Shown here piece by piece: positions 36,837-40,912 of a stretch of 52,010 nucleotides of DNA (within the stretch, counting starts at the first letter, position 1; every line of letters starts with the position of its first letter). Origin of the DNA: ANME-2 cluster archaeon (GTDB lineage Archaea; Halobacteriota; Methanosarcinia; Methanosarcinales; Methanocomedenaceae); NCBI GenBank assembly GCA_014237145.1, contig JAAXOC010000101.1:1-52010 (forward strand), in the 5' to 3' direction. The position numbers and the translations under genes were made by a program. The notes below the pieces were generated by a model that did no database searches, was not told where the DNA came from, and saw nothing but the letters and a program-made list of their open reading frames with translations.

Positions 36837-38498
36837 ATGGCAGCACAATTAGGTGGACAGCCGATATTTATATTAAGAGAAGGGACCGAGCGTTCCAAGG
36901 GCAGAGAAGCCCAGAACAATAACATTATGGCAGCTAAGGCAGTGGCCAATGCCGTGAGGACTACCCTCGGACCGAAGGGCATGGATAAAATGCTTGTGGA
37001 CGGCCTGGGAGATGTGGTAATTACCAATGATGGTGTTACGATCCTAAGAGAAATGGATATAGAACATCCAGCAGCCAAGATGGTCGTAGAAGTAGCCAAG
37101 ACCCAGGACGATGAAGTGGGCGACGGCACCACGACTGCCGCTGTACTGGCTGGAGAACTTCTAAAGGTAGCAGAGGACCTGCTGGACCAGAATGTACATT
37201 CTACCATAATTGCCAGTGGATACAGACTGGCAGCCGACAAGGCATCCGAGATACTGAAAACCATTGAGAGAACAGTAACAGAGGACGATGAAGACCTGCT
37301 CTTTAAGATCTCTGAAACTGCGATGACGGGCAAAGGCGCTGAGAGCTCCAAGGATAAATTGTCAAAACTTGTGGTCAAGGCAGTAAAATCCATTGTTGAG
37401 GTAGAGGGCGGCAAGAAAGTAGTTGATATTGATAACATCAAGGTCGAGAAAAAGGTCGGCGGCAGCATTGAGGACTCGGAACTGATCGAGGGCATGGTCA
37501 TTGATAAAGAGCGTGTGCATCCCAATATGCCTAAAGTGGTGAAAGATGCAAAAATAGCCATGATCAGTGAACCTGTAGAGTTCAAGAAGACCGAAGTGGA
37601 TGCAGAGATCAATATCACATCTCCTGACCAGCTCCAGTTGTTCCTGGACCAGGAAGAAAAAATGCTTAAGAACATGGTGGATAAGATCATTAATTCCGGT
37701 GCCAACGTAGTGGTCTGCCAGAAAGGTATTGATGATATGGCACAGCATTATATGTCCAAGGCCGGGATACTGGCTGTAAGGCGTGTCAAGAAGAGTGACA
37801 TGGAGAAATTATCCAGGGCATCTGGCGGTGTTGTGGTCACTAATATTGATGAGATCTCTGAATCAGACCTGGGATATGCAGGCCTGGCAGAAGAGAAGAA
37901 GACAGGCGGCGATAGCATGCTTTTCATCACAGGTTGTAAGAACCCCAAGGCAGTAAGCATTGTAATCCGCGGCGGTACAGAACATGTAGTGGATAGTCTG
38001 GAACGCGCACTTGAAGATGCACTGCGTGTGGTCGGTGTTACCATCGAAGATGAGAAACTGGTCGCAGGCGGCGGCAGTCCTGAAGTAGAACTGTCCCTTA
38101 GGCTGAGTGAGTATGCTGCCACACTGAAAGGCAGGGAACAACTGGCAGTAACTCAATTCGCAAACGCATTGGAAGTCATTCCCCGGACCCTTGCAGAAAA
38201 TGCCGGACTGGACCCCATCGACATGATGGTGGAACTGAAGTCCCAGCATGAAAAAGGTAACAAGAATGCAGGTCTGGACGTGTATACCGGTGATGTCATT
38301 GACATGATGGAAAAAGGTGTTGTTGAGCCTCTCAGGGTAAAGACCCAGGCAATAAACAGCGCTACTGAATCGGCAGTCATGATACTGAGGATCGATGATG
38401 TCATTGCATCCACTGGCGGCGGAGAAGGCGAGATGCCACCAGAGATGATGGGCGGCGGTATGCCACCTGGTATGGGCGGAATGCCCCCCATGATGTAA
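36837..38498 (+). CDS. Thermosome subunit (group II chaperonin)
   Basis: A 553-residue subunit of the double-ring archaeal chaperonin that folds proteins with ATP. It starts [20 protein letters not shown] and carries the ATP-site motifs [11 protein letters not shown] and GDGTT (95-99), with [20 protein letters not shown] in the apical-to-intermediate region and [11 protein letters not shown] near the end. The C-terminal Gly/Met-rich tail ([16 protein letters not shown]) projects into the cavity. Prefoldin alpha elsewhere in the window is its partner. A rho-independent-like terminator follows. Confidence 0.97.
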
Positions 38499-38516
38499 GT
38501 GTAAATATACAATAAA

Positions 38517-38551
38517 GCGTACCCTGTGGGGTACGTTCAATTCTTTTTTTT
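38517..38551 (+). terminator. Hairpin terminator after the thermosome gene
   Basis: GCGTACCCTGTGGGGTACGT forms a 7-8 bp stem, then TTCAATTC and a run of seven to eight T. Such stem-plus-T structures occur behind highly expressed archaeal genes. Confidence 0.65.
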
Positions 38552-38695
38552 GTTGATGGGAATATCAACTGAATTCCTGTTAATTCCGCCTGGGATTATC
38601 GATTTTTTCAACGTATAGGAAAGTATATACTTACCTGTAGGCTTAGAAAATGCGAACGAAGTGAGCATTTTCTTGATTATTTTTTATTCTCGCAC

Positions 38696-38719
38696 CGAGA
38701 CTTTTTATTATTTCCTGAT
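38696..38719 (+). repeat. Inverted repeat, left arm
   Basis: CGAGACTTTTTATTATTTCC followed by TGAT, exact reverse complement of 39566-39589. A partial third copy, TTAAAAAGTCTC, sits at about 38775-38786 just before the phosphoesterase ATG and could pair with this arm. Confidence 0.9.
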
Positions 38720-38792
38720 CACCACTTAAGTATTTCGCGAACTATATAACTAAGTATGGCATTTCCAGAATAAATTAAAAAGTCTCTGTAAT

Positions 38793-39557
38793 ATGACCAT
38801 AATAGCAATATCGGACACACATATTGGCACATCAGAAGCTGACACACCGGCAACGCTCCGGTTCCTGCATAGCGTCGAGCAGCGCGCTGGAGACGTGACT
38901 GACCTCGTACTATGTGGTGACATCTTAGACTTTTGGAGATGCGACGCAATGGATATGGTTCTCGAATCATCGCGGTTCATGAGCGCGCTAATTAACATGG
39001 CAGATGCGGGCGTTAACATCCACTACATTGCCGGAAATCACGACTACGTCATGCGCAAGGCAAAGAGCAGTCACAAGCGCATCAAGTTCTCGACCGATCT
39101 GGAACTTAAGCAGGATGGGTGCATCTGGGATTTCATACACGGCTGGGAGTTCGATAAGTTCATGAAACACGCATACTTCGATGCGTTCTGTTATACAAAT
39201 ATAACACGCGGAGATGCAATCTGTAAGACCTACAATATGTATCTGCGCTTCTTGCAACCGATTGAGGGGTTTCTTGCAAGGATCAGAGGACATTTCATTC
39301 AGAACGACATGAAGCAGATGATACGGCAACATGATAAAACCAAACTACTGAAAAACCAGATACCGCATGGTGGTGATCCACTCGGTAGCGTAGACTTTCC
39401 AGATGGCGGCCTGATCTTCGGGCATCTACATATGCCATATTTAAACGCAGCGGAGCGGATGGCGAACTGCGGCTCATGGCACAAGTCACATCCGATCCAC
39501 AACACATATATTGAGATTGATGAAAGCATGGTACACCTACGGCGAGAGTTCGAATGA
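38793..39557 (+). CDS. Metallophosphoesterase (calcineurin-like)
   Basis: A 254-residue dinuclear metallophosphatase. Motifs are complete: ISDTHIG (D-x-H), CGDILDFW (GD), IAGNHDYVMR (GNHD), FIHGWEFDKF (H) and LIFGHLHMPY (GHxH). The layout resembles UDP-2,3-diacylglucosamine hydrolase-like enzymes, but archaea lack lipid A, so the substrate is unknown; phosphodiesters or nucleic acid ends are possible. It lies alone between inverted repeats, and its codon use looks richer in CGC and GCG than its neighbours, hinting at transfer. Confidence 0.9.
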   Translation: MTIIAISDTHIGTSEADTPATLRFLHSVEQRAGDVTDLVLCGDILDFWRCDAMDMVLESSRFMSALINMADAGVNIHYIAGNHDYVMRKAKSSHKRIKFSTDLELKQDGCIWDFIHGWEFDKFMKHAYFDAFCYTNITRGDAICKTYNMYLRFLQPIEGFLARIRGHFIQNDMKQMIRQHDKTKLLKNQIPHGGDPLGSVDFPDGGLIFGHLHMPYLNAAERMANCGSWHKSHPIHNTYIEIDESMVHLRREFE

Positions 39558-39565
39558 AACTATTA

Positions 39566-39589
39566 ATCAGGAAATAATAAAAAGTCTCG
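39566..39589 (+). repeat. Inverted repeat, right arm
   Basis: ATCAGGAAATAATAAAAAGT followed by CTCG begins eight bases after the phosphoesterase stop. It matches the left arm at all 24 positions. The rest of 39590-39847 carries only a small hairpin (TTCGGA...TCCGAA) and the outer direct repeat. Confidence 0.9.
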
Positions 39590-39847
39590 TCAAAGAAGCC
39601 CTTCTAACTTGGAATAGGTTCGGATATACCACGTTATATGAAATTCCGAACCCTGCCTTTGAAAAAGAAAGATGTTTATACAGAAAATGAAAGATAAAAA
39701 AATTATTGCAGGTTAACGAAAGGAGACTTACCATGCGCAATTATTGCAAAATGCCAAGCACTGAATTTAATGTCAATTAATTCCACCCAAGATTATTGAT
39801 TTTTTCAAAGAATCATGAGCATCCTCCCTCTTAGGTCACAGGTGGCC

Positions 39848-40912
39848 CTACAACCATCTTTTTTTCTTGGTATAAATCATCATTCCGAGTCCTATGATCA
39901 ACATAACCAGGAGGATCATGGGATAACCATATCGCCATTCGAGTTCCGGCATATACCTGAAGTTCATCCCGTAAACCCCTGCTATAAAAGTCAGGGGGAT
40001 GAATATTGTGGCAATAATCGTTAACACCTTCATAACTTCGTTCATCTTATTGCTGATACTCGAGATATAGAGGTCAAGCATTCCGGAAAGCATATCACGA
40101 AATGTATCTATTGTGTCGATCACATGGATCGTATGATCGTAAACATCACGAAGATATAGCTCGGTTGACTCCCTGAACAGATCCGATTCTCCTCTTTCCA
40201 ATTTGCTTAACACCTCACGCAGGGGCCAGACCGACTTGTGAAAAAGCAGCATTTCTCTTTTTAAATTATGAATAGAATGCATGGTTTTTGGTCCTGGTTC
40301 ATCTATGAGTTCTTCTTCCAGATCTTCTATCTTGTCTCCAATTTTCTCAAGGATTAAAAAATAGCCATCGACGATCACGTCCGTCAAAGCATAAGTAAGA
40401 TAATCAGCCCCCATCTTTCTTATACGTCCTTTTCCGTTTATGATTCTTCGTCTCACCGGATCAAAAACATTCCCATCTCCCTCCTGGAACGAAATAACGA
40501 AATTCGAGCCAATAATCAAACCAACCTGGTCCACCTTTATCTTCATGTCCTTTTCCTCAAAACAGAGGTTCTTCAATATGAGAAAGATGTAATCATCAAA
40601 ATCCTCCATCTTAGGACGTTGTTCTGTATTGGCAATATCTTCTAAGATAAGAGGGTGGATATTGAAGTGCTTGCCAACCTTCTCTATGATCTCTAACTGA
40701 TGAAGACCTTCTATGTTTATCCAGGTGATGGTTGGTGTATCCCTAAATGGAAAAGATTCCTCGATCGTCTCCAGTTCCCTTTCCTGGAATTGTGTCTCAT
40801 CATAATCAATGATCGTAATTCTTTCTTTTACGGCTTTTCTCTCCCCTATGTGGACGAGAGTCCCGGGAGGGAGTCCCACTTTCTCTGACCTCTTTCTAAA
40901 AAGTCTGTGCAT
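39848..40912 (-). CDS. corA: CorA-family Mg2+/Co2+ channel
   Basis: A 354-residue pentameric divalent-cation channel. A large N-terminal cytosolic domain is followed by two C-terminal membrane helices. The signature GMN is at 315-317 (VYGMNFRYMPE), and the tail ends in the basic KKKRW. It is the last gene of a six-gene minus-strand run and lies 34 bases after mscS. The pairing with MscS suggests joint ion and osmotic homeostasis. Confidence 0.95.
   Translation of the reverse strand: MHRLFRKRSEKVGLPPGTLVHIGERKAVKERITIIDYDETQFQERELETIEESFPFRDTPTITWINIEGLHQLEIIEKVGKHFNIHPLILEDIANTEQRPKMEDFDDYIFLILKNLCFEEKDMKIKVDQVGLIIGSNFVISFQEGDGNVFDPVRRRIINGKGRIRKMGADYLTYALTDVIVDGYFLILEKIGDKIEDLEEELIDEPGPKTMHSIHNLKREMLLFHKSVWPLREVLSKLERGESDLFRESTELYLRDVYDHTIHVIDTIDTFRDMLSGMLDLYISSISNKMNEVMKVLTIIATIFIPLTFIAGVYGMNFRYMPELEWRYGYPMILLVMLIIGLGMMIYTKKKRWL

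Follow-up and report, generated by a model that had tools for sequence, protein, structure and literature searches.

Perfect inverted repeats enclose a single phosphoesterase gene in the genome of an ANME-2 cluster archaeon, and a pair of imperfect direct repeats brackets the whole arrangement. The locus lies in contig JAAXOC010000101.1, of which positions 1 to 52,010 were analysed (this stretch of 52,010 nucleotides is referred to as the window throughout). It raises the question of what the repeats are, how the gene came to stand between them, and whether they contribute to its expression or its movement.

Layout of the locus

The inverted arms (38696-38719 and 39566-39589) pair with each other without a single mismatch (24/24 letters complementary). 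The window holds two matches to the arm at up to three mismatches, compared with none in 100 shuffles, which is not expected by chance. The left arm starts 97 nt before the ATG (38793), and a gap of 8 nt separates the stop codon (39557) from the right arm, confirming the first-pass annotation of a perfect 24-nt inverted repeat around one phosphoesterase gene. Its statement that the unit contains no transposase was likewise borne out by the ORFs present. The features of the locus are as follows:

38567-38616, plus strand: left outer direct repeat; a homologous sequence follows the thermosome gene in genome G004
38604-38677, plus strand: dispersed repeat of ~75 bp with two hairpins, between the left direct repeat and the MITE and separate from the latter
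38696-38719, plus strand: left 24-nt arm, formed by a left-type end of the MITE family together with 1 and 2 letters of flanking sequence
38697-38786, plus strand: complete 90-bp MITE with its left end at 38697-38717 and its right end at 38766-38786, alignable over its full length with copies of 90-102 bp from several genomes
38726-38749, plus strand: conserved TATA-like core of the MITE, with ACTATATAA at 38741-38749
38766-38786, plus strand: right-end type of the MITE family, previously read as a partial third copy of the arm
38793-39557, plus strand: gene for a 254-aa calcineurin-type (LpxH-like) metallophosphoesterase (Pfam Metallophos) with intact metal-ligand motifs
39566-39589, minus strand: stray MITE left end, facing inward, with no right-type end beside it as a partner
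39764-39813, plus strand: right outer direct repeat, pairing with 38567-38616

The third arm copy had been proposed to form an alternative leader hairpin. The copy is real, but it is the other end of the complete 90-bp MITE and stops 6 nt upstream of the ATG. No right-type partner was found adjoining the downstream stray left end. The gene is therefore flanked by an entire MITE on one side and by an inverted stray end on the other, and the 892-bp unit consists of a left end, the gene and an inverted left end.

The arms are ends of a dispersed MITE family

The 24-mer arm has 12 matches in its own genome at up to three mismatches, the two arms included, and the left-type 21-nt core has 36, of which nine are exact (control 0 for both). 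The right-type 21-mer, represented by the third copy, also has 36 matches at up to three mismatches (control 1), and merging left and right ends gives 66 distinct ends in the genome. Extending the search to relatives, as the first-pass annotation had proposed, revealed the left end in 27 of the 40 genomes searched and in all six of the genus. The arms are thus ends of a dispersed MITE family, both of the left-end type. Their perfect identity is not special to the phosphoesterase gene, with the 21-nt core exact in 9/36 left-type matches; since the ends are dispersed in the genome, the inverted repeat represents two copies of a common transposon end and is not private to the gene. An integron-like cassette, another earlier suggestion, is not needed to explain arms that the MITE family accounts for.

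Elements that are complete, pairing a left with a right end between duplicated 8-bp flanks, are frequent. In the fetched loci, at least 7 of the 8 flank letters match in 33 of the 49 elements of 135-160 bp. For elements longer than 105 bp the figure is 43/73 (0.0005 at random positions), compared with 1/13 in the 85-105-bp class that includes the window element (Fisher p 0.0006 versus the longer elements), both counts coming from loci picked by pattern matches and thus representing a biased sample rather than genome-wide rates. The flank counts exclude pairs too close to the end of a locus and further occurrences of an element with identical flanks, the size classes omit pairs shorter than 85 bp, and matches shorter than 55 nt were excluded from the search for relatives of the 90-bp element. 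Shifting the flanks added one clear case (L232, 8 of 9) and one weak case (L081, 7 of 9). At the window's 90-bp MITE, 0 of 8 flank letters match (CTCGCACC and TGTAATAT), and around the 892-bp unit 3 of 8 do so (CTCGCACC and GTCAAAGA); no target duplication appeared at either with shifted or 7-9-nt flanks.

In keeping with the definition of a MITE, the 90-bp element is short and dispersed, carries terminal inverted repeats and lacks a transposase ORF. Target duplication is seen in the family and not at the copy at 38697-38786, and an autonomous partner with matching ends is present in the same genome (G000:C2:10811-12540). The family looks undescribed, and a literature search found no paper on this MITE/IS family. 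At one further copy of the left end (L118 near 487, G000:C37), a sequence resembling by eye the start of a group II intron follows within ~50 nt.

A candidate transposase

The partner element in the window's own genome contains, between family ends, an undisrupted ORF of 409 aa that encodes a MULE-type domain. The ORF scored 26.8 bits against the Pfam MULE cut-off of 27.6, and with the IS256 and ISH6 models it reached 22.1 of 150 and 18.4 of 240 bits, below both cut-offs. An end-to-end copy of the element, 92% identical, occurs in the MAG HMMV-459A3 (ANME-2 cluster archaeon). Matching 8-bp flanks are absent at all three complete IS copies (G000:C2, G002:C150 and HMMV-459A3). The earlier suggestion of transposon ends served from elsewhere holds in this respect, as a transposase ORF with matching ends exists in the genome and could act in trans. 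In the best overall explanation, which we consider likely, the MITE family of the arms has as its relative an insertion sequence whose MULE-type transposase is distantly IS256/ISH6-like.

The phosphoesterase and its origin

The 254-aa protein matches Pfam Metallophos with an E-value of 7.4e-08, and among solved structures its closest sequence matches are LpxH enzymes (E 1.3e-05 over the N-terminal 90 residues). D8, H10, D43, N82, H83, H116, H211 and H213 are invariant in an alignment of seven proteins and are presumably the metal ligands of this family. The protein resembles LpxH in its N-terminal part and in these motifs, but with 38.2 bits against 134 it does not qualify as LpxH (UDP-2,3-diacylglucosamine hydrolase) by the curated (equivalog) cut-off. 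The proposal of a defence gene with regulatory stems is not supported: the match to PADLOC PDC-S10, an anti-phage defence candidate, is weak (E 2.8e-5, 21.5 bits, residues 1-118 only), and the left arm precedes the point at which transcription is predicted to begin.

Matches of any kind to the gene occur in 27 of 99 genomes. Besides the window, identity above 35% over most of the length is found only in G040 (58%) and G028 (56%), which belong to another family of the order, and the left end is absent from both homologue loci at up to four mismatches. The other five genomes of the genus contain no full-length relative above ~35% identity, the gene is single-copy in its own genome (next match 31%), and no relatives were confirmed in the contig collections (genome_contigs, viral_contigs). 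Codon use, which the first-pass annotation had singled out for comparison, is only mildly atypical, with the 7th lowest score of 41 ORFs and a third-position GC of 0.571. Acquisition is favoured because the close homologues (56-58%) sit in another family and lack the arms. Judged by this distribution, the gene was probably acquired, although loss elsewhere is also compatible with the data.

The MITE core as a candidate promoter

Of 13 aligned 85-105-bp elements, 12 have a core around TTAAGTATTTCGCAAACTATATAA, which we take to resemble an archaeal BRE/TATA box; the exception, L180, is of a different type. In the window, the centre of the TATA-like ACTATATAA is positioned 48 nt upstream of the ATG, and transcription would accordingly be expected to start at ~38770, giving a leader of ~23 nt. 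Since its conserved TATA-like core is suitably spaced from the ATG, the 90-bp MITE probably drives the phosphoesterase gene. It counts against a promoter role that no gene begins shortly after several copies of the 90-bp class. A sigma-70 scan returned 6 sites compared with a shuffle mean of 4.1, using a model that is not apt for archaea.

A 90-bp MITE is also found ~110-150 nt upstream of a different phosphoesterase, ~31% identical to that of the window, in two sister genomes (L098 near 4678, G004:C209; L097 near 663, G001:C169). No empty site for this element was recognized in G000 and G002, where the upstream regions do not align.

How the unit may have been assembled

The combined results point to a probably acquired phosphoesterase gene that came to have a complete 90-bp MITE in front of it and a stray left end, facing inward, behind it, with the TATA-like core of the MITE serving as its putative promoter. 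The tight fit and the missing duplications may be the result of transposition-linked adjacent deletions or of recombination, as adjacent deletions by replicative transposition would fuse the ends to new neighbours without leaving duplications. Taken as a whole, this combination of MITE/IS-related ends, acquired gene, MITE promoter and adjacent deletion or recombination is the best explanation, and we have reasonably good confidence in it. Against it stand the lack of target duplications at the 90-bp MITE and the 892-bp unit, at the three complete IS copies and at 12 of the 13 elements of 85-105 bp, as well as the only mildly atypical codon use. An inversion between the arms was considered as a cause of the missing duplications and rejected, since, reasoning from the flanks, it restores no flank match.

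Alternatively, two unrelated MITE insertions could flank the gene by coincidence, followed by decay and with no role for the MITE in expression. In a random model placing 52 units in the intergenic space of a simulated genome, 67 of 300 runs gave at least one gene with units no more than 100 nt away on each side, a crude estimate with post hoc thresholds and orientation ignored, so that a loose bracketing of the gene could be due to chance. The MITE copies found where no gene start closely follows agree with such a view. However, both distances were 10 nt or less in 0/300 runs of the same model, and the TATA-like core is found where it would be expected relative to the ATG. Coincidence is in our judgement unlikely.

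A further possibility is that the entire 892-bp segment is transporon-like, a non-autonomous, gene-carrying element that the MULE-type transposase moves in trans. The unit does enclose a cargo gene between two inward-pointing family ends; these ends are perfectly inverted, the gene lies within 10 nt of family sequence on both sides, and a transposase ORF is available in the same genome. Relatives with cargo add to the case. A 2199-bp family member (G010:C19:20382-22580; L224 2383-4581) has perfect 12-nt ends and an 8/8 duplication, and contains pieces of a transposase (MULE, E 9.2e-05), a second stretch resembling a right end, and cargo ORFs of 105, 157 and 125 aa, the last with a weak SpoIIM match below the cut-off. 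In G010:C198 (L232 2650-2739), a 90-bp MITE adjoins the second half of a MULE-type transposase gene as payload, with the opposite end 871 bp on. In G000:C77, a MITE of 152 bp that lacks a duplication is accompanied by an isolated opposite end, and the two span 3625 bp between their outer edges. These relatives make a gene-carrying unit in the window plausible, not proven. Counted against it are the missing outer target duplication, the single copy of the gene in the genome, the lack of arms at the G028 and G040 homologues, and the outer ends themselves, which are both left-type where paired elements normally have one of each. Neither a second copy of the unit nor an empty site was found, and the earlier suggestion of a unit that could move in one piece is not supported (3 of 8 flank letters, one copy, no empty site). 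We consider the transporon-like reading doubtful.

Two side observations concern these relatives. The 105-aa ORF of the G010:C19 element is small, glycine-rich and hydrophobic, and appears bacteriocin-like by eye. L291 (2267-3227) has the same architecture as the window unit and G010:C198, with a 90-bp MITE by a transposase second half and the opposite end ~870 bp on.

Outer direct repeats and the thermosome flank

The outer direct repeats (38567-38616 and 39764-39813) are 74% identical over 50 nt and 84% over 32 nt, and their joint consensus occurs nowhere else in the genome at up to three mismatches. In G004, both have their homologue in one and the same sequence next to the thermosome gene (84-86%). 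The stretch shared with G004 extends to about window position 38680, where another gene follows, and G004 has neither MITE nor phosphoesterase at this site. Being present by the G004 thermosome without the cassette, the left repeat is older than, or independent of, the latter. Between it and the MITE lies the separate ~75-bp dispersed repeat (38604-38677), which has 42 matches in the genome, the window copy included, and many in the genus; it has two palindromic hairpins, one AGGAAAGTATATACTTTCCT-like and one of the form AAAATGC...GCATTTT. Rfam gave no match in the window at gathering scores, and none in 38400-39900 at E <=1.

The first-pass annotation was right that the direct repeats are real and bracket the unit, and the two are homologous, but insertion with a ~45-bp target duplication is highly improbable in view of the 8-bp duplications of the family, the cassette-free left copy in G004 and the dispersed repeat intervening before the MITE.

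The relatives differ in what follows the thermosome gene on its 3' side, where other genes are found, and for this reason no clean empty site with one direct-repeat copy, as the earlier proposal would have it, could be identified in the relatives. A synteny search was equally negative, with CorA never adjoining the thermosome in the relatives' fetched loci. The region 3' of the thermosome (window 38500-39850, L151-L161) is a rearrangement hotspot with varied neighbours within the genus.

Implications and comparison with known systems

The data suggest that small transposon remnants may supply a working promoter to a newly arrived gene in uncultured archaea of the methane cycle, and the locus defines a MITE/IS family with a testable transposase candidate. 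The wider points are modest, comprising the dispersal of the family in ANME-2-related genomes, a single relative that bears cargo, and a copy class without target duplications. A more speculative idea, to which we give little weight, is that the 90-bp class acts as a mobile archaeal promoter cassette, in which adjacent deletion or capture fuses TATA-core MITEs to foreign gene starts. Once an opposite end follows the gene, the result would be a gene-carrying unit that a MULE-type transposase can move in trans, and the window unit, the 2199-bp G010 element and the G010:C198 unit would be stages of this process.

IS256 and ISH6 elements generate 8-bp target duplications. The system described here is similar in its 8-bp duplications at related MITEs, its MULE-type domain and its weak transposase match, but the transposase falls far under the curated cut-offs of both families.

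Prokaryotic MITEs with outward promoters are known, among them Correia elements and MITEAba12 (PMC10969869, PMC6382973). The likeness lies in several features: the elements are short and non-autonomous, have inverted ends and family target duplications, and place promoter-like sequence by a gene. They differ in that the promoter-like sequence in the archaeon is a TATA-like core, a putative promoter, rather than a sigma-70 promoter, and in that the 90-bp class mostly lacks target duplications. According to the review, archaeal MITEs are less well known, and it names a few genera (PMC10969869). Genes bounded by two MITE copies also have a precedent, as MITEs flank class 1 integrons in Acinetobacter (PMC6382973). 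The unit in the window shares this bounding by MITE sequences with the Acinetobacter composites, and departs from them in having one whole MITE and one end, with no outer target duplication. MITEs with promoters and MITE-bounded gene sets are thus known in bacteria, and the family found here is an addition to a known arrangement.
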